The notes beneath the pieces were generated by a model. The model searched no databases. It saw nothing but the letters and a program-made list of their open reading frames with translations, and had not been told where the DNA came from. Below are positions 12,390 to 21,956 of a stretch of DNA of 22,377 bases, piece after piece. Position 1 is the first letter of the stretch. Every line of letters starts with the position of its first letter. The stretch is from a virus. The stretch covers positions 1-22,377 of the IMG/VR virus record IMGVR_UViG_3300042568_001178; one strand, 5' to 3'. The translations under genes and the position numbers were made by a program.

Positions 12390-13676
12390 TCATGCCGGGT
12401 TGCGGGTCGCCTTCTGTCCGGTGAGGGTTTCCCACCGGCGGACGATGACGTCGACGAACCGGGGGTCGAGCTCCATGCCGTAGGCGGTGCGTCCGAGCTG
12501 CTCGGCGGCCATGAGGGTGGTGCCGCTGCCCATGAACGGGTCGTAGACGGCGGCGTCGCGGGCGCTGCTGTTCTGCATGAGGTAGGCGAAGAGGGCGACG
12601 GGCTTCATGGTCGGATGGTCCTCGCTCTTTGCCGGGCGGTCGAAGTACAGCACGGTGGTCTGCTTGCGGTCGCTGTTCCACAGGTGCGCGGCGCCCTCGG
12701 TCCAGCCGTAGAGGGCGGTCTCGTGCTGGCGCTGGACGGTCTCGGTGAGCTCGGCCGGCTCGGGGGTCTTGGCCCCGTACAGGCAGGGCTCGTGCTGCCA
12801 CTGATAATCCTGCCGGCCCATCACGAGGGCGTTCTTCACCCAGATCAGGCACTGGCGGGTGCGCTGGCCGCAGTCGCGGGCGGCGGCTCGGAAGTTGAAT
12901 CCCTCGCTGTCGGCGTGCCAGATGTACCACGCGGCGCCGGGCTTGAGGGCCTTGAAGGCGGGCGCGAGGGCGTCCTTGAGGAAGGCGCGGAACTTCTCGT
13001 CGGGCATGGAGTCGTTCTTGATCTTCATGCCCGTGCCGCCCTCGTAGTCGACGTTGTACGGGGGGTCGGTGAGCAGGAGGTCCATCTTGGCGCCGGCGAG
13101 GAGGCGGTCGACGTCGGCGGGCTTGGTGCTGTCGCCGCACAGGATGCGGTGCCGGCCGAGGGCCCAGAGGTCGCCGGGCTTGCTGATCGGGTCCTCGGGG
13201 ACCTCGGGCATCTCGTCCTCGGTGACCTTGGGGCTGACGGCGCAGTCGAGCTCGGCGAGGTCCTTGGCGTCGAATCCGGTCGCGGCGAGGAGGTTCTCGT
13301 CCTCGATGGCGATGGCGGCGAGCTGCTCCCGGAGGGCGGCGTCGTCCCATTCGGCGAGCTCGGCGGTGCGGTTGTCGGCGATGGCGAAGGCGGTCGCCTC
13401 GGCGCCGATGAGGTTGGTCCGGACGGCTTTGACGGTCCGCCAGCCGAGGGCCTTGGCGGCGGCGAGGGTGCCGTTGCCGGCGACGACCACGCCGCGGGCG
13501 TCGACGACGATGGGCTTCTGCTGGCCGAACCGGGCGAGGCTGCCCTTGATGGCGTCGAGGTTGCGCTCGGGGTGCCGGCGGACGTTGGCGGGGTCGAAGG
13601 CGAGGGTGTCGACGGCGATGTCCTCGATGGCCATCGTCAGGCCGGCCTCGAGCTCGGCGGCGGGCTTCTTGCTCAC
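12390..13676 (-). CDS. ParB-like domain fused to DNA methyltransferase (beta class, N6-adenine or N4-cytosine)
   Basis: This 428-aa protein modifies DNA bases, probably protecting the phage from restriction. Residues of about 15-110 form a ParB/sulfiredoxin-like domain (IAVDTLAFDPANVRRHPERN, then QKPIVVDARGVVVAGNGTLAAAKALGW). Residues 170-420 form the methyltransferase: CGDST near 180-184, catalytic DPPY at 204-207, HPTMKP at 354-359 and the AdoMet-binding DPFMGSGT at 379-386. The order DPPY before FxGxG is the beta class. The start is GTG 13676, overlapping the stop of the HTH gene (GTGA) with GGGAG seven bases upstream. An internal ATG at 13634 has worse spacing. The frame is open further upstream, but that part is a shadow. 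The target sequence cannot be read from the protein. Confidence 0.9.
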   Translation of the reverse strand: MSKKPAAELEAGLTMAIEDIAVDTLAFDPANVRRHPERNLDAIKGSLARFGQQKPIVVDARGVVVAGNGTLAAAKALGWRTVKAVRTNLIGAEATAFAIADNRTAELAEWDDAALREQLAAIAIEDENLLAATGFDAKDLAELDCAVSPKVTEDEMPEVPEDPISKPGDLWALGRHRILCGDSTKPADVDRLLAGAKMDLLLTDPPYNVDYEGGTGMKIKNDSMPDEKFRAFLKDALAPAFKALKPGAAWYIWHADSEGFNFRAAARDCGQRTRQCLIWVKNALVMGRQDYQWQHEPCLYGAKTPEPAELTETVQRQHETALYGWTEGAAHLWNSDRKQTTVLYFDRPAKSEDHPTMKPVALFAYLMQNSSARDAAVYDPFMGSGTTLMAAEQLGRTAYGMELDPRFVDVIVRRWETLTGQKATRNPA

Positions 13677-13990: not shown

Positions 13991-14917
13991 TCACGAGGCG
14001 GTTGCGAATTCCTCGGCGGCGATCCTGCCGCGCCAGACGGCGGCGATGTTTCGGACCGCCTTGTCGGCGAGGTCGTTGCGGAGGGAGACGGTCGGGGAGT
14101 CGCCGCCTTGGGTATGGTCGCGCCACCAGCGCCACCAGAGCTCGTGGGCCTCGTCTGGGTTGAGGCCCTTGGCCTCGACCTTGGCGATGACGGTGGCGCG
14201 TTCGGTGCAGATGCGCTCGGTGGCGTCGGCGACGGCGTCGGCGAGCACTTCCTCGACGGTGACCGGGAATCGGCTTCCGTCGTCGAGCTTGCGGAAGAGG
14301 TCGCCGGCCTCGGCCCGCTCGAGCTTGGTCGCCCACGCCGGCGTCGCCTTGGCGAAGCGCTCGGCCATCGCCCTGTCCGGCTTCCATTCCCTGACTGCCT
14401 TCTTCCCCCCCCCAATGGTGCGGGTCGCGGTCGGGGCTTCCTTGGCGGGGGGTAGGGGGGTGGTATCTCTGGTTGTGGTTGTGGTTGTAGTAGCCATCAA
14501 TTCGCCATTGGCGTTGCCATTGGCAGGGCTATTGGCGTTGCCATTGGCGACCCCATTCCCGCGTCCCCAGCGGGCCTCGGCGCCTCGGCGTCCGTTCTCG
14601 GCGGCGGTGGTGTGTCGCTCCTGCACGCGTGCTCGCTCGCGCTCCATGCGCGGGTTGATGAGGGTGGCCATTGGGGTGGCCATTGGCCCTGCCATTGGCG
14701 TTGCCATCGAGGTGAAGCGGCCTCGGACAGCCTGCCAGTCGGCCTCGGTCATCGGGCAGCGCGTCAGGGCGGCGCAGGCGTCGCGGTCGTCCGGCACGCT
14801 GCCGTTGGTCCATGCGTACATCAGCAGCTGGGTGTAGGCCCATCCCTGTGTCGGCGTCATCGTTGCCGTGCTGACGAGGAAGTCGGTCGGGTACATCGGG
14901 AACCAAGGTGTCGACAT
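13991..14917 (-). CDS. DUF1376 (YdaU-type) phage replication protein
   Basis: The 308-aa protein has the DUF1376 N-terminal domain (residues 4-60: WFPMYPTDFLVSTATM, GWAYTQLLMYAWTNGSVPDD, ALTRCPM), a family linked to phage replication initiation next to O/DnaC-type genes. A basic MERERARVQERHTTAAENG helix (91-109) and GAEARWG follow, then a low-complexity linker (121-150; Asn-Gly-Asn-Ala and Thr repeats), then a helical C-terminal domain (170-308) rich in Trp (WWRWWRDH). ATG 14917 has GGAG eight bases upstream. The frame continues upstream for 79 codons with no protein-like content. Two DNA repeat blocks inside the gene could be the phage origin. It is the first gene of the leftward block. Confidence 0.75.
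   Translation of the reverse strand: MSTPWFPMYPTDFLVSTATMTPTQGWAYTQLLMYAWTNGSVPDDRDACAALTRCPMTEADWQAVRGRFTSMATPMAGPMATPMATLINPRMERERARVQERHTTAAENGRRGAEARWGRGNGVANGNANSPANGNANGELMATTTTTTTRDTTPLPPAKEAPTATRTIGGGKKAVREWKPDRAMAERFAKATPAWATKLERAEAGDLFRKLDDGSRFPVTVEEVLADAVADATERICTERATVIAKVEAKGLNPDEAHELWWRWWRDHTQGGDSPTVSLRNDLADKAVRNIAAVWRGRIAAEEFATAS
14469..14493 (-). repeat. Hexamer repeat coding a Thr tract
   Basis: About four copies of GGTTGT on the plus strand encode the Thr-rich stretch (residues 143-149) of the replication protein. It lies just beyond iteron block 1. It could be slippage-prone, or could be the more easily opened side of an origin. Confidence 0.5.
14504..14551 (-). repeat. 12-bp direct repeats, block 1 (candidate iterons)
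   Basis: There are four head-to-tail units of 12 bases. The plus-strand consensus is GCCATTGGCGTT, with units starting at 14504, 14516, 14528 and 14540, plus a degenerate fifth. In the gene they encode Ala-Asn-Gly-Asn units. The same repeat occurs in block 2 in a different reading frame, so the DNA rather than the peptide seems to be conserved. Confidence 0.75.
14667..14707 (-). repeat. 12-bp direct repeats, block 2 (candidate iterons)
   Basis: Three units start at 14667, 14679 and 14691, plus a partial fourth. The orientation and 12-base period are the same as in block 1. Here they encode Met-Ala-Thr-Pro units. The exact 17-mer GCCATTGGCGTTGCCAT at 14691-14707 is identical to 14504-14520 but is shifted by one reading frame (187 bases apart). 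Confidence 0.75.
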
Positions 14918-14940
14918 CGTTGTGTCTCCGTGGGACCGGG

Positions 14941-15014
14941 GCGGGGCGGGGAGCGGGTGCAAGCTGACCCGCCCCGCCTCCGGTTGTCGAGATGTTGAGC
15001 AGTTGCACCCGCTC
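14941..15014 (-). promoter_or_regulatory. Competing hairpins in the leader of the replication gene
   Basis: Two perfect inverted repeats cross each other. The 12-base GAGCGGGTGCAA at 14951-14962 pairs with 15003-15014. The 10-base GCGGGGCGGG at 14941-14950 pairs with 14968-14977. In leftward RNA the arms come in the order B5', A5', B3', A3' with no bases between B3' and A3'. Both full stems can hardly coexist, so the leader could switch between two folds. The A stem ends about a dozen bases before the SD of the DUF1376 gene. Alternatively the repeats are protein-binding sites in DNA. Confidence 0.5.
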
Positions 15015-15023
15015 GTGACGCGC

Positions 15024-15052
15024 AGGATACCGACTGTCGCGCTTGGCAGCAA
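15024..15052 (-). promoter_or_regulatory. Leftward promoter candidate
   Basis: Reading leftward: -35 TTGCTG (15052-15047), 17-base spacer, -10 TATCCT (15029-15024). Predicted RNA start is about 15017, at the edge of the first arm of the leader inverted repeat. It would drive the replication gene and possibly the late block. Its -35 overlaps the -35 of the rightward candidate. Confidence 0.5.
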
Positions 15053-15071
15053 GCCTGCGCTGACGTAGGAT
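15043..15071 (+). promoter_or_regulatory. Rightward promoter candidate
   Basis: TTGGCA (15043-15048), 17-base spacer, TAGGAT (15066-15071). Five of six -35 bases and four of six -10 bases match the sigma-70 consensus. Predicted RNA start is about 15079, leaving a leader of roughly 310 bases with two hairpins before the first rightward gene. It overlaps the leftward candidate, so the two should compete. Confidence 0.5.
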
Positions 15072-15089
15072 GTCGGCGCTCGCTTGCGA

Positions 15090-15130
15090 CCCGGCGCCGC
15101 TGTCATGTCGACGGTGGCGCCGGGCTCTTT
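15090..15130 (+). terminator. Hairpin with short T-rich tail in the rightward leader (attenuator candidate)
   Basis: A 9-bp perfect stem (CCCGGCGCC 15090-15098 with 15116-15124) and 17-base loop are followed by CTCTTT on the plus strand. It lies shortly after the predicted rightward RNA start and could act as an early terminator relieved by antitermination. The T-tract is weak. Confidence 0.35.
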
Positions 15131-15140
15131 CACCAACGAA

Positions 15141-15170
15141 CGAGCCCCGGCCATTACAGCTCGGGGCTCG
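15141..15170. repeat. Inverted repeat in the control region
   Basis: CGAGCCCCG at 15141-15149 pairs perfectly with 15162-15170 around a 12-base loop. No U-tract follows on the plus strand and only a weak T-containing stretch follows on the minus strand. It may be an RNA hairpin in either leader, or an operator. Confidence 0.4.
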
Positions 15171-15238
15171 CTTCCGGGGGCAAGGTTGCGGGCGGCGAAG
15201 GCTTGCCCATCGGGTTCGCAGTGCCGGCCCGCGCAATG

Positions 15239-15266
15239 ATCCTACCGCCTTGCAGGGGAAATGCAA
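15239..15266 (-). promoter_or_regulatory. Second leftward promoter-like site
   Basis: Reading leftward: TTGCAT (15266-15261), 16-base spacer, TAGGAT (15244-15239). The -10 hexamer is identical to that of the rightward candidate. It would make a longer leftward leader through the control region. Confidence 0.35.
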
Positions 15267-15296
15267 GAGCTCGGTCGAAATTTCTGCCCTTCGCCC

Positions 15297-15325
15297 TTGA
15301 CGGGTATCGGTCGCCCGTTTACCGT
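15297..15325 (+). promoter_or_regulatory. Promoter-like site before the rightward operon
   Basis: TTGACG (15297-15302), 17-base spacer, TACCGT (15320-15325). The pattern TTGACG-N17-TAYCGT recurs before the recT gene at 19287-19315, which raises confidence in both. The first gene starts about 55 bases after the predicted RNA start. Confidence 0.4.
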
Positions 15326-15386
15326 GCCCGCGTCGAGCACGTCGCTCGGCCCGTGCCGCCCGGCTGGCGGCGCAAGGAGCACACGA

Positions 15387-15755
15387 ATGGATCGTGATTT
15401 CTCGAAGCCCACGTCGCGGCGCGTCAGCGTCGACGAACTACCGGAGGACGTCCGCGAGCAGCTCGCCGGCATCCGGGCGGCCGCCCCGAACCGGATCTGG
15501 CTGGTCGTCCCTGTTGCCGTCGTCGAGCGCCTCGATGACAAGGACGCCGGCGTGACGGAGGAATTCTGGCGGGTGCACGCGTATGTCGGCGGCGACCTTG
15601 ATCGCCCGGTCAGCCTGTTCTCGTCCCGCGTCGAGGTCGGCGTCGGCGACGATGCCCGGTCGGTGTCGGTCGACTTCACCGAGCTGATGATCCGGGTGGT
15701 CGAGGAGACCTGCCGCATCATGGACATGCTGAAGGAGGACCGCCATGAGGGCTGA
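15387..15755 (+). CDS. Unknown 122-aa protein, first gene of the rightward operon
   Basis: The start ATG 15387 has AAGGAG eight bases upstream. The frame is open earlier but has no good start or sensible sequence. The protein is acidic, with an N-terminal helix region (SVDELPEDVREQLAGIRAAAP), a core of alternating hydrophobic strands (RIWLVVPVAVVERL; FWRVHAYVGGDL; VEVGVGDDARSVSVDF) and a C-terminal helix (ELMIRVVEETCRIMDMLKED). No family is recognised. Its end overlaps the CsrA-like gene by 11 bases, so they are made together. First-gene position suggests an early host-directed or regulatory role. Confidence 0.75.
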   Translation: MDRDFSKPTSRRVSVDELPEDVREQLAGIRAAAPNRIWLVVPVAVVERLDDKDAGVTEEFWRVHAYVGGDLDRPVSLFSSRVEVGVGDDARSVSVDFTELMIRVVEETCRIMDMLKEDRHEG

Positions 15756-15939
15756 ACTTCCCCCGATGGTCGGATGCGTCGTCGTGACGCTGCGCGAGAA
15801 CGAGGATCGGCTCCTCCTGAAGTCGGCCGACGGCGACATCCAGATCGAGGTTCATCCGATCTCGATGTGCCGTGCGAAGGTGGTCGTCCGGGCCCCGAAG
15901 TCGGTCGAGGTTCGCCGGCAGAAGGCAGGTGACGAATGA
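15745..15939 (+). CDS. CsrA-like small RNA-binding protein
   Basis: The 64-aa protein aligns by eye without gaps to the second half of CsrA. Residues 32-59 (IQIEVHPISMCRAKVVVRAPKSVEVRRQ) match the CsrA strand order ending in the signature A-P-K-x-V-x-V-x-R. Arg58 is in the place of the RNA-contacting Arg44 of E. coli CsrA. The first half (VVVTLRENEDRLLLKSADGD) fits the strand-1 V-L-x-R-x-x-x-E part loosely. It has an N-terminal extension of about 10 residues. CsrA dimers bind GGA in hairpin loops and at SDs. The SD (AAGGAGG) lies inside the preceding gene, and the stop overlaps the next start (ATGA). A phage copy could retarget translation of phage or host mRNA. Confidence 0.65.
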   Translation: MRAELPPMVGCVVVTLRENEDRLLLKSADGDIQIEVHPISMCRAKVVVRAPKSVEVRRQKAGDE

Positions 15940-16205
15940 GGCGCCGCGTTCGCCGTTCGACCGAGGCGTCGGTGTCTCGGCTGTTCGACCTGATCTCGGA
16001 GCTGCATCTGGGCGGCTGCCCGACCCGGCAGGAGCTCGCGGTCCGCTGGCGCTGCACGCCGCGGGCGGTGTCGCACCTGCTGGCGACCGCTCGGGAGCGG
16101 TTCGGCGTCCGCATCGAGGCGGATGTCTCGCTGGCTGCTCGGGGCTATCAGCTCGTCGACTCTGGGGTCTTTGACGCCGCTGCCGTGGCGAGGAGGGTCG
16201 CATGA
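15936..16205 (+). CDS. Winged helix-turn-helix protein (89 aa)
   Basis: This basic DNA-binding protein has N-terminal Arg-rich residues (MRRRVRRS), a helix (SRLFDLISELHLGG), then a typical HTH (TRQELAVRWRCTPRAVSHLLATARERFG, 29-56) and a wing-like strand pair (VRIEADVSLAARGYQLV). It resembles the HTH of DeoR/HTH_11-type regulators without a ligand domain. The start ATG overlaps the CsrA-like stop, and the stop overlaps the next ATG. It is probably an early transcription regulator of the phage, and the control region just upstream is an obvious target. Confidence 0.7.
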   Translation: MRRRVRRSTEASVSRLFDLISELHLGGCPTRQELAVRWRCTPRAVSHLLATARERFGVRIEADVSLAARGYQLVDSGVFDAAAVARRVA

Positions 16206-16528
16206 ACCTCTTCGATGCTGCCGAGGCTGATCGCCGGAAGGAGGAGGGGCGCCAGCGGGCTGCCGCGGCGAATCCGTGGCTGCTGGCGACCGCGCAGCGC
16301 TGCGCTCGCCGGGTGGCGGAACGGCTGGGCTCGGTCTCGATGGACGACGTCGCGCTCGAGCTGGCGAGCGCCGGCGAGGACGTGTCTCGGCTCGGGAACG
16401 CCGCCGGCAGCGTGTTCCGCGGCGAGGAGTGGGAGTGGACCGGTCAGGTAGTCCGCAGCGCCCGTCCCTCGACACACGGCCGGATGATCCGGGTCTGGCG
16501 CCTGCGCGGCGCGGGAGGTGCCTCGTGA
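16202..16528 (+). CDS. Small phage protein with winged-helix-like fold (108 aa)
   Basis: The protein starts MNLFDAAEADRR, has an AANPWLLATAQRCARRVAERLG helix, an SMDDVALELASAGED segment, then LGNAAGSVFRGEEWEWTG and HGRMIRVWRLRG at the end. I recognise this pattern (start in NLF-x-A, end in S-H-G-R-x-x-R-x-W) as a common small phage protein of unknown function, often near early or replication genes. The predicted fold is winged-helix-like. It is coupled by ATGA to the gene before and by GTGA to the gene after. Confidence 0.7.
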   Translation: MNLFDAAEADRRKEEGRQRAAAANPWLLATAQRCARRVAERLGSVSMDDVALELASAGEDVSRLGNAAGSVFRGEEWEWTGQVVRSARPSTHGRMIRVWRLRGAGGAS

Positions 16529-17179: not shown

Positions 17180-17478
17180 CACGAACCACCCGCAAAATCA
17201 AGCCTGTGGTCATGCTCCAGACCGCGCCGAAGGAAACAAAGGCGCTCGCTGCCGTCGTCGGCAAGCTCGCCGCGCACGCCGACTACGACCGCGTCGCTAT
17301 GGAATGGCACGGGCCGAAGGCGGTCGAGATGGCGAAGCGCGGGCGCAGCCTTCGTGAGCTCGCACGCGCCACGGGCCTGTCGACCACCTACCTGTCGCTG
17401 GTGGCGAACGGTCGCCAGCGCATCAGCCTGTACGCCATGCACGCGCTGCTGTGTCAATGCGAGGGGATGCAGCCATGA
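17176..17478 (+). CDS. XRE-type helix-turn-helix protein (100 aa)
   Basis: The start is GTG 17176 (GTGA overlap with the previous stop), with GGAGG seven bases upstream. The N-terminus is basic (VTRTTRKIKP). Residues 62-90 form a Cro/C1-like HTH (RGRSLRELARATGLSTTY, then LSLVANGRQRISLYAM). It is the best candidate for a Cro-like regulator in the operon. It lacks a dimerisation or cleavage domain, so it is not a LexA-type repressor. Confidence 0.75.
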   Translation: MTRTTRKIKPVVMLQTAPKETKALAAVVGKLAAHADYDRVAMEWHGPKAVEMAKRGRSLRELARATGLSTTYLSLVANGRQRISLYAMHALLCQCEGMQP

Positions 17479-18434: not shown

Positions 18435-18823
18435 CCGACGCCTTCCTGATTCTCCGGCAGCGTCTGCTGGCCGGCGGGGCTGGCGAGGTGCGTGTCCCGG
18501 CCGCGCTCCTCGCTCGGCTGCTTGACGAGGCCTCGGTGCTTCAGGGAGAGCGGGATGCCGCCTTCCGGCGCCTCGAGCACGTCGAGCGCCAGCGGCAGGG
18601 CTGGGAGGCGCATCTGCGCAGGGTCCTTGCTGGTAATCTTCCAGCTGATCTCGCCGATGACCACCGAGAAGCCCCGTCCCCGTCGCGCCCCGCTCAACGC
18701 CGAAACCGTGCAGGCGATCCGTCTGTGCAAGTCGCAGGGCATGAAGCAGTCGGTGATCGCGGCGCGGTTCGGCGTCAGCAACGCGGCCGTCAGCCTGATC
18801 GTCCGGGGACTACGACGCCGTGA
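18431..18823 (+). CDS. Small coiled-coil protein with an unconstrained C-terminal overlap (130 aa)
   Basis: ATG 18431 follows GGGGGGAGGG and overlaps the previous stop. The first 75 residues look real (MTDAFLILRQRLLAGG, VPAALLARLLDEA, a charged helix to LRRVLAG). The rest (about 76-130) is Arg/Gln/Pro-rich and is read in a different frame from the HTH gene at 18657, whose third positions are strongly GC while this frame's are mixed. The stop TGA 18821-18823 forms GTGA with the start of rusA, so translation to the end may serve to couple rusA. Confidence 0.6.
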   Translation: MTDAFLILRQRLLAGGAGEVRVPAALLARLLDEASVLQGERDAAFRRLEHVERQRQGWEAHLRRVLAGNLPADLADDHREAPSPSRPAQRRNRAGDPSVQVAGHEAVGDRGAVRRQQRGRQPDRPGTTTP

Positions 18824-18833
18824 GAAGCCCTGA
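18657..18833 (+). CDS. Small HTH protein (58 aa), overlapping out of frame
   Basis: MTTEKPRPRRAPLNAETVQ starts it, then AIRLCKSQGMKQSVIAARFGVSNAAVSLIVRGLRRREKP. Residues 15-50 are a clear resolvase/Mor-type HTH (V-x-x-I-x-x-x-x-x-x-G-x-x-x-x-x-I-A-x-x-F-G-V-S). The third codon positions are almost all G/C over the whole gene, which marks this as the coding frame in the overlap with the 18431 gene. There is no clear SD before ATG 18657. It could be a DNA-binding regulator. A frameshifted fusion with the upstream frame is an alternative. Confidence 0.65.
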   Translation: MTTEKPRPRRAPLNAETVQAIRLCKSQGMKQSVIAARFGVSNAAVSLIVRGLRRREKP

Positions 18834-19290
18834 CGCACGATCCTTCTTCGTGCATGGCCTGCCCGCGACGCAGGGCAGCAAGCGGCTCGTCCGCCTTCGG
18901 AACGGTCGCTCGGTGATGATCGAGAGCTCGAAGCATCTCGGGGAGTGGCGGCAATCCATCGCGATGATGGCACGCGGCGCCGAGGTGCCGCTGCACGAGG
19001 TCGACGTGCTCGTGAGCATTCAGGCGATCTACCTGCGCCCCGAGTCGCACTTCAAGCGCGACGGCTCGCTGCGCAGCTCGGCTCCTCCTCGCCCCGGCTA
19101 CGCCGACTGCGACAAGCTCGCCCGCGCCGTGTGCGATGCGCTCGCCGGCATCGCGTACCGGAACGACCGACAGGTCGCCCTGCTCGCGGTCGAGCGGATG
19201 TGGGCCGATGACGAGGCGCGTCCCGGCGCGTACATCTCCATCGCGCCGGCGCCGCCCGTCGGCGTCTGGGGATACTGGAAAGGCGCTTGA
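18820..19290 (+). CDS. rusA: RusA-type Holliday junction resolvase
   Basis: The 156-aa protein has the RusA start (FFVHGLPATQGSKRLV, residues 9-24) and the acidic site: Asp96/Asp98 in YADCDKLARAV (94-104), Asp106 in CDAL, and Asp116 in YRNDRQV (113-119). These fit the family pattern D-x-D-x-x-x-K/R-x-x-x-D-x-L and D-x-Q-V. It cleaves four-way junctions made in replication and RecT-driven recombination. The start GTG 18820 overlaps the stop of the 18431 gene; SD is weak, so coupling is likely. The end overlaps a promoter for recT. Confidence 0.88.
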   Translation: MRSPDARSFFVHGLPATQGSKRLVRLRNGRSVMIESSKHLGEWRQSIAMMARGAEVPLHEVDVLVSIQAIYLRPESHFKRDGSLRSSAPPRPGYADCDKLARAVCDALAGIAYRNDRQVALLAVERMWADDEARPGAYISIAPAPPVGVWGYWKGA

Positions 19291-19315: not shown

Positions 19316-19370
19316 CGTGGGGGTGGTGGCAATCGTTGCCGCCGATCTCGCCATTGACGGAGTAGGACCC

Positions 19371-20378
19371 GTGGAAATCACCTCTATCGCTCGGTATGAC
19401 CAGTCGAAGATCGACTTGGTCGCTCGCACCATCTGCAAAGGCGCCTCGAACGACGAGCTGTCGTTGTTCATCGCCATCTGCGAACGCACGGGCCTCGACC
19501 CGTTCGCTCGGCAGATCTACTCCATCGAGCGCTGGGACTCGCAGCTCGGCCGGAAGGTCCGGCAGACGCAGGTCTCCATCGACGGCGCTCGACTGACCGC
19601 GCAGCGGTCCGGTGAGTACGCGGGGCAGGACGGACCGTACTGGTGCGGTCCCGACGGCGTCTGGCGCGACGTGTGGACCGAGGATTCGCTTCCGTTCGCC
19701 GCGAAGGTCGGCGTGCTGCGTCGCGGCTTCGCGCAGCCGTTGTACGCGGTCGCCGTGTTCTCGGAGTACCAGCAGACGACCAAGGACGGCAAGCTCACGC
19801 GGATGTGGTCGCAGATGCCGACGCTGATGATCGGCAAGTGTGCCGAAGCTCTGGCGTTGCGAAAGGCCTTCCCGGCCGAGCTCTCGGGTCTGTACACCGC
19901 GGAGGAGATGGGGCAGGCGGACGCCGGCGAGGCGCCCGTCCCGGTCCCGGTCGCCGTCCCTCGGGAGATGGCGGCCGCGGCGCTGCCCGCCCCGGCGCCG
20001 GCGGTCCTCGAGGCCGAGGTGGTGGCGTCGAGCTCGGTGGAGTCGGCCCTGCAGGCGTCGTCGGCCAAGCCTCGCAAGGGCAAGGCGCCGGCCAAGGCCA
20101 GCGAGGGGCACCTGCGCAAGTGGCCGGAGACCGGGACCGACGTCGTCGTCGCCGAGAAGGTGGTCGACCGCGGGAACAGCATCTCGGCGGTCCTGTGCTC
20201 GCACGCGACCGACGGCCGGCAGTGGGTGTCGGTCGGGCCGGACCTGATCGCCTCGGTGAAGCTCGACGTCCCGCTGGAGATGGATTGGCAGTGGGACAAG
20301 GCGGGCTTCTTCCGCGCCACCCGCATCAAGCCCGCCCCGGCGCCGGCGGCGGTCGCCGACGACGAGGTTCCGTTCTGA
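19371..20378 (+). CDS. RecT/Bet-family single-strand annealing protein with SSB-like tail
   Basis: The core (residues of about 5-190) shows the Bet/RecT pattern: LSLFIAICERTGLDPFARQIY, VRQTQVSIDGARLTAQRSGEYAGQDGPYW, FAAKVGVLRRGF, LTRMWSQMPTLMIGKCAEALALRKAFP. It anneals single strands in recombination. Beyond about residue 195 comes a Pro/Val/Ala linker, then a basic patch (KPRKGKAPAKA) and a beta-type domain (about 245-320), ending in ADDEVPF. The last six residues, DDEVPF, resemble the DDDIPF tip of SSB, which recruits partners. I chose GTG 19371 because an AGGA lies upstream and the frame before it lies at the predicted RNA start. It probably works with RusA and Gp157. Confidence 0.85.
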   Translation: MEITSIARYDQSKIDLVARTICKGASNDELSLFIAICERTGLDPFARQIYSIERWDSQLGRKVRQTQVSIDGARLTAQRSGEYAGQDGPYWCGPDGVWRDVWTEDSLPFAAKVGVLRRGFAQPLYAVAVFSEYQQTTKDGKLTRMWSQMPTLMIGKCAEALALRKAFPAELSGLYTAEEMGQADAGEAPVPVPVAVPREMAAAALPAPAPAVLEAEVVASSSVESALQASSAKPRKGKAPAKASEGHLRKWPETGTDVVVAEKVVDRGNSISAVLCSHATDGRQWVSVGPDLIASVKLDVPLEMDWQWDKAGFFRATRIKPAPAPAAVADDEVPF

Positions 20379-20408: not shown

Positions 20409-20918
20409 ATGAGCCTGTACGCCATCAAGACCGAATTGCTGTCCCTCACCGACGCCGCCATGCTGCACGGGCACGACTCCCCGGAGCTCGAGCAGGCGTT
20501 CGCCGAGCACCGTGCCGCGCTGGTCGGCGCCTTCGAGGCGAAGGCCGACGACTACGCGGCCCTCGTGCGCGTCTGCGAGACCCGCGCTGCGGCCCGGCGC
20601 GAGGAGGCCGAACGCATGAAGCAGCTCGCCGACGACGACGAGCGGCTCGCCGAGCGCCTGCGCTCGACGCTGCTCGATGCCATGCAGGTGACCGGGCTGC
20701 AGAAGGTCGAGACCGAGCACTTCCGGCTGGCTGTCCGCCGGAACGGCGGAAAGATCCCGGTCGTCATTCAGGACGAGGCCTCGATCCCGGTCGAGTACCG
20801 GGTCCCCAAGGTGACCGAGGTCCTTGACCGGGACGGAATCCGGGCGGCCCTCGAGGCCGGCACGGCGGTCCCCGGCGCGGTCCTCGGGGAACGGGGCAGC
20901 CGGCTGGACCTGAAGTAA
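20409..20918 (+). CDS. Siphovirus Gp157-family protein
   Basis: The 169-aa protein matches the Gp157 pattern. It has an N-terminal SLYAIKTELLSL helix, then a long helical coiled coil (EAKADDYAALVRVCETRAAARREEAERMKQLADDDERLAERLRSTLLDAM, about 43-93), a strand-rich segment with VETEHFRLAVRRNGGKIPVV (100-119), and IPVEYRVPKV (127-136). The family often sits by recombination genes such as RecT or Erf. Some members were linked to phage resistance or DNA handling, but the activity is not settled. The SD AAAGGAGA precedes ATG 20409. A strong terminator follows the gene. Confidence 0.85.
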   Translation: MSLYAIKTELLSLTDAAMLHGHDSPELEQAFAEHRAALVGAFEAKADDYAALVRVCETRAAARREEAERMKQLADDDERLAERLRSTLLDAMQVTGLQKVETEHFRLAVRRNGGKIPVVIQDEASIPVEYRVPKVTEVLDRDGIRAALEAGTAVPGAVLGERGSRLDLK

Positions 20919-21503: not shown

Positions 21504-21956
21504 ATGAAGACCGCCAAGACCACCCGCAAGCCCCGCACCGTCGCTGATCTCGCCGCCCGCCTCGAGACGTCCATCGAGGCGCTGGCGACCGCCAAGCCCG
21601 CCAAGGCCCGCAAGGCGCCGCGCTTTGACCGCAAGCACACGGGCCCGGCAGCGCCCGCCCGCAAGGCCAAGCTTGCGCCGGCGCCCGCCCCGGCGCCCGT
21701 CGAGCCGGCCCCCGTCGCGCCTGCTCGGCGCATGAGCCTCGTCGGCGCCGCCGTCGTCATTCTGCAGCGCGACGAATGCCAGCTTCCCGTGCGCGAGATC
21801 CTTCGTCGCATCACCGAGAGCGGCCTGTGGTCGAGCCCGGCCGGCAAGACCCCGGAGCAGACGCTCTACTCCGCGATCATCCGCGAAATCGCCACCAAGG
21901 GCACCGATGCCCGTTTCCGCCGCGGCGACCAGCGCGGCGCCTTCCTCGCCGCCTGA
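21504..21956 (+). CDS. HARE-HTH domain protein with histone H1-like tail
   Basis: The C-terminal half (about 77-148) is a HARE-HTH domain, a winged-helix-type fold found in eukaryotic chromatin factors (HB1/ASXL) and bacterial restriction-type proteins. The pattern is MSLVGAAVVILQRDE, PVREILRRITESGLW, then GKTPEQTLYSAIIREI and a basic/Gly-rich RFRRGDQRGAFLA end. The N-terminal half is Lys/Ala/Pro-rich (KPAKARKAPR, then a Pro/Ala/Val run at 58-75) like an H1 tail, and probably binds DNA. The SD AAGGAGC precedes ATG 21504. In bacteria and phages this domain is suggested to sense DNA modification, which would fit the phage methyltransferase, but this is inference. Confidence 0.75.
   Translation: MKTAKTTRKPRTVADLAARLETSIEALATAKPAKARKAPRFDRKHTGPAAPARKAKLAPAPAPAPVEPAPVAPARRMSLVGAAVVILQRDECQLPVREILRRITESGLWSSPAGKTPEQTLYSAIIREIATKGTDARFRRGDQRGAFLAA

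Follow-up and report, generated by a model that had tools for sequence, protein, structure and literature searches.

In the established structure of CsrA, strands β1 and β5 of each protomer pair with the other chain. The bacterial CsrA/RsmA/RsmE proteins (PF02599; PDB 1vpz, 2bti, 1y00, 2jpp) carry an arginine, Arg44, that is essential for RNA binding (PMC7366521). Homologs encoded by phages are already known: a 2020 survey by Sobrero and Valverde (PMC7366521), which relied on resemblance to the cellular protein, listed them in 30 of 2517 phages, and 98 records of the phage collection searched here matched E. coli CsrA (tblastn, E up to 10).

Besides bacterial CsrA itself, three phage proteins and one plasmid protein are the closest points of comparison. 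Gp28 of Escherichia phage PTXU04 is a clear PF02599 member (47.5 bits) that keeps Arg6-Arg7 and is encoded after the holin and endolysin genes; its knock-down led to smaller plaques in a 2025 study, which makes it the only phage CsrA copy with a reported phenotype that we found in the literature (PMC11879866). Gp35 of BcepMigl (Bcep22-like phages, phrog_8397) is a short, divergent CsrA with Leu at the Arg6 position and the Arg44 equivalent kept; it passes the PF02599 cut-off (32.4 bits), and its gene precedes the major head gene and is not part of the recombination operon. Gp26 of Vibrio phage VvAW1, encoded in an operon with exonuclease genes, shares 57% identity with E. coli CsrA in the region that aligns and has a long C-terminal part. 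Finally, RsmQ is encoded on a plasmid and closely resembles the Rsm proteins of chromosomes; it binds GGA by means of the motif that contains Arg44, and this binding was weakened by the R44A change (PMC9928087). The branch described here is divergent and apparently unannotated.

The CsrA-like gene and its operon

The window, i.e., the whole stretch of 22,377 bases that was analysed, is an IMG/VR virus record whose minus strand encodes the terminase, portal, and major head proteins. The plus strand carries a rightward operon including genes for a RusA-like Holliday junction resolvase (18820-19290), a RecT single-strand annealing protein (19317-20378), and a Gp157-like protein (20409-20918); to judge from these three, the operon is probably an early one. 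It is separated from a leftward DUF1376 gene (with its start placed at 14917) by a divergent control region (14918-15386), inside which a single sigma-70-like site was found (15043-15071, plus strand). The first gene of the operon (15387-15755, plus strand) encodes 122 aa with a weak match to a ribbon-helix-helix family (PF07878, E 0.005, below the cut-off).

The CsrA-like gene (15745-15939, plus strand) comes second and encodes a protein of 64 aa, MRAELPPMVGCVVVTLRENEDRLLLKSADGDIQIEVHPISMCRAKVVVRAPKSVEVRRQKAGDE. Its ATG at 15745 overlaps the 3' end of the first gene, and its stop codon lies at 15937-15939. A Shine-Dalgarno sequence rated as good (AAGGAGGA, 15732-15739, plus strand), containing AAGGAGG, was observed close 5' of the ATG. 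The predicted RNA fold around this start was unremarkable (z -0.3), with an energy no better than that of shuffled sequences. The gene is directly followed by one encoding 89 aa without a family match, with homologs in relatives (15936-16205, plus strand), and then by one encoding a conserved phage protein of unknown function (16202-16528, plus strand; 108 aa). The latter protein had 122 confirmed relatives in viral contigs and no Pfam match, and was a good marker for finding the clade.

Other features of the window were also recorded. Two strong inverted repeats rich in G+C, CCCGGCGCCGCTGTC/GACGGTGGCGCCGGG (15090-15124) and CGAGCCCCG/CGGGGCTCG (15141-15170), lie within the leader of about 300 nt that extends 3' of the rightward operon's sigma-70-like site; neither has a T run, and their loops contain no GGA. 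An N6/N4 DNA methyltransferase fused to a ParB-like domain is encoded at 12390-13547 (minus strand), and a small protein with a HARE-HTH domain, which is more familiar from eukaryotic chromatin proteins and restriction systems, at 21504-21956 (plus strand; PF05066, E 1e-8). No Rfam families or tRNAs were found in the window.

The family in related viral contigs

When used alone as a query, the window protein retrieved nothing from the viral contigs or the phage collection. Relatives were reached through viral contigs with a related RecT, which had CsrA-like ORFs at the equivalent location on the 5' side of RecT, then through contigs carrying the gene found at 16202 in the window, and by an iterated profile. 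It returned 44 non-redundant matches; the last one accepted had E 2.6e-13, and the next, at E about 1, was rejected. About 42 distinct proteins were thus obtained, including that of the window, i.e., about 41 further homologs in IMG/VR contigs. No convincing family member was found in five bacterial genomes with related RecT genes. Within the phage collection, the window protein and those of contigs L007 and L165 matched no record, and a member from L074 had one chance-level match.

The CsrA-like gene was on the same strand as the RecT/RusA operon in all 57 loci having one, and was present at 27 of the 33 loci with the gene at 16202 and 5 kb on either side (a few loci share contigs). RusA, RecT, and Gp157 were its constant companions in the closest relatives. 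The original prediction had placed it right after the control region, as the second gene of an early operon. Its location downstream of that region in a rightward recombination operon is supported; second place is true of the window but peculiar to it, as the position varies among relatives and several rightward ORFs come ahead of the gene in L003. The dN/dS ratio was mostly 0.04-0.3 for close pairs and 0.3-0.55 for pairs involving L025; two pairs from the L136 group gave 0.8-1.0, with too few changes to tell. The gene is under purifying selection in most groups, and is a regular part of the recombination operon in this clade of uncultivated phages.

In two contigs (L093:4716-5015 and L094:6989-7306; 100 and 106 aa, respectively), the CsrA-like domain continued in frame into a coiled-coil-like C-terminal part resembling other small operon genes, among them the one at 17475 in the window.

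Match to CsrA and predicted fold

PF02599 was the sole Pfam family reported for the window protein (E 3e-4; E 9.8e-6 when searched against the window record alone). The match expected from the original prediction was therefore found, but its 21.1 bits fell below the cut-off of 27, and the top family member, with 26.6 bits, was also below it. Since this curated cut-off was tested and missed, we do not claim PF02599 membership and refer to a CsrA-like homologous branch. With the NCBIfam CsrA model (E 0.0055; 16.7 bits, cut-off 73), residues 30-59 corresponded to model positions 16-45 over equal lengths, which confirmed the ungapped alignment proposed earlier. Neither the window protein nor the relatives tested matched the CsrA-like PHROGs phrog_8397, phrog_9500, and phrog_5527, whereas the BcepMigl, PTXU04, and VvAW1 proteins do match CsrA-like PHROGs.

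The relatives pointed in the same direction. Among 29 diverse members, 15 matched PF02599 at E up to 1, and any other Pfam family was matched by at most three. A family profile built without CsrA and searched against all PDB sequences ranked CsrA/RsmA/RsmE entries first to seventh, with individually weak E values (0.055-0.14); RsmF and RsmN were also among its 14 PDB matches. In a local test, none of 20,000 shuffled CsrA sequences scored as high with this profile as the CsrA proteins of VvAW1, BcepMigl, and E. coli. Single scores of the profile are weak, however, as the best shuffle (15.1 bits) exceeded PTXU04 gp28 (14.3 bits) and B. subtilis CsrA was absent from the top matches listed. A profile-profile comparison of the family with a four-sequence CsrA alignment gave a probability of 51% and E 1.6e-4; it was not counted as evidence, since of these four the E. 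coli sequence alone was checked (identical to PDB 1y00).

The structure was predicted by AlphaFold from the 29-sequence family alignment, which contained no CsrA (pLDDT 84.4, pTM 0.61); this superseded an earlier run with 10 sequences, which was poor (pLDDT 60). Five strands were predicted, at residues 12-17 (β1), 23-27 (β2), 30-38 (β3), 44-49 (β4), and 54-58 (β5), the limits of β1 and β5 being set by the CsrA alignment. In the monomer model, β2, β3, and β4 were paired together, while β1 and β5 remained extended and free of pairing, in keeping with pairing to a partner chain. The first 11 matches of a Foldseek search against the PDB were all CsrA/RsmA/RsmE. Seven such entries gave VIA Z scores of 4.1-5.6 over 49-53 residues, and all others at most 2.9; values below 8 are not strong on their own, and the result is convincing because of the gap to unrelated entries, the full coverage, and the sequence evidence together. 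In BFVD, the best named matches were annotated as CsrA-like (Klebsiella phage LASTA, Serratia phage Parlo, and uncultured Caudovirales).

By AlphaFold, Foldseek, and VIA, the predicted single-chain fold is thus that of CsrA, and the CsrA-like identity first proposed for this gene is borne out by profile, synteny, selection, and fold. The CsrA match of the window protein, sub-threshold when taken alone, is secure through its syntenic relatives and its fold. By homology, an intertwined, strand-swapped dimer would be expected.

Conserved residues, RNA targets and alternative readings

The window protein shares with bacterial CsrA the predicted five-strand fold, an ungapped β3-β5 part, the A-P-K-x-V-x-V-x-R signature, and the equivalent of Arg44. 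It differs by an N-terminal extension before β1, a longer β2-β3 hairpin, and the lack of a predicted C-terminal helix after β5, with six residues beyond Arg58. Arg58, the Arg44 equivalent, was invariant in 29 of 29 members, the only other invariant residue being Met1. The APK of the signature, present in the window protein as originally noted, was replaced before β5 by APR, AGK, ADQ, AEQ, or VDR in several relatives; in the joint alignment, Arg6 of CsrA (β1) was replaced by Leu and Arg7 was kept. RNA binding may therefore be altered.

Our preferred reading, which we consider likely, is that of a divergent, helix-less CsrA homolog of a phage clade that acts as a GGA-binding dimer and reshapes translation. 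The protein would be made together with the recombination genes and, by homology, form an intertwined CsrA-type dimer with two RNA-binding faces, composed of β1 and β5 around Arg58. It would then bind GGA-containing sites where translation of phage mRNAs, host mRNAs, or both is initiated, and would repress or reshape that translation. The computation establishes the gene, its family, the synteny, purifying selection in most groups, the fold, and the invariance of the Arg44 position, whereas we infer the dimer, RNA binding, GGA preference, timing, and targets. Against this reading stand the single-sequence scores, all below curated cut-offs, the Leu in place of Arg6 and the loss of APK in several members, and the lack of a GGA-loop signal at gene starts across the clade.

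GGA motifs at gene starts gave an indirect view of possible RNA binding. Upstream of the Shine-Dalgarno sequence of the CsrA-like gene, we observed two candidate hairpins with GGA in the loop: GGTC-GAGGA-GACC (15698-15710, plus strand), formed in the predicted fold with an energy that was not unusual, and GCAT-CATGGAC-ATGC (15715-15729, plus strand), absent from the minimum-energy fold. At the gene starts of the window, 17 of 57 GGAs fell in possible hairpin loops, about twice the proportion in shuffled sequences (30% versus 14%). No such enrichment was found in the relatives (185 of 1354 GGAs, 13.7% versus 13.6% in shuffles), where gene calls were crude; the window-only enrichment is unexplained or due to chance. 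Of 100 GGAs in the sequences preceding the csrA-like genes, 19 were in loops, versus 9.4 (SD 3.2) in shuffles. This excess is suggestive only, because several of the sequences are nearly identical and the 13.7% at all starts is not clearly exceeded. In the L122 group, the L111 group, and L025, the GGA of the Shine-Dalgarno sequence itself can fall in a hairpin loop. Host-translation takeover or GGA-dependent control of phage leaders, as first suggested, is plausible in view of the invariant Arg44 equivalent; the takeover is offered as a conjecture, since the loop enrichment is confined to the window and the local fold is unremarkable.

The changed β1 face (Arg6 to Leu) and the missing C-terminal helix, in a protein with the same fold as CsrA, could also suit an antagonist that would form mixed dimers with host CsrA or compete for its RNA, thereby relieving repression of host genes. 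We regard this as unlikely, because every member retains the arginine that RNA binding requires, contrary to the needs of a decoy that does not bind. It is rather improbable that the CsrA fold was kept for a role in recombination, e.g., in binding single-stranded DNA beside RecT and RusA: the steady presence of RusA, RecT, and Gp157 nearby in the closest relatives, the similar location of the VvAW1 gene among exonuclease genes, and the in vitro binding of GGA in single-stranded DNA oligos by a plasmid CsrA homolog (PMC9928087) are in line with such a role, but membership of one operon is not in itself proof of a common function, and other phage CsrA-like genes adjoin head or lysis genes. That an unrelated small beta protein resembles CsrA by chance through an APK..V.V.R string, as sub-threshold single-sequence scores and the missing APK of some members might suggest, is nearly refuted by the independent profile, the fold, and the PDB-wide rankings, all of which place CsrA first.

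As a regular gene of the recombination operon, the divergent CsrA homolog probably tunes protein synthesis early in infection in this phage clade. Since the family lies below curated cut-offs and matches no CsrA-like PHROG, phage CsrA-like regulators are probably more common than has been counted. It is quite possible, if somewhat short of probable, that annotation has overlooked a large, sub-threshold clade of phage CsrA homologs: near-core in these uncultivated phages, pared down to the fold and one invariant arginine, in some members without APK, and with an RNA specificity that may have changed; such proteins may also escape those antagonists of CsrA that target its C-terminal helix. The approximately 42 sequences sharing one invariant arginine provide a natural test of the minimal RNA-binding core of CsrA, and the family also bears on the use of translational control by phages during infection.
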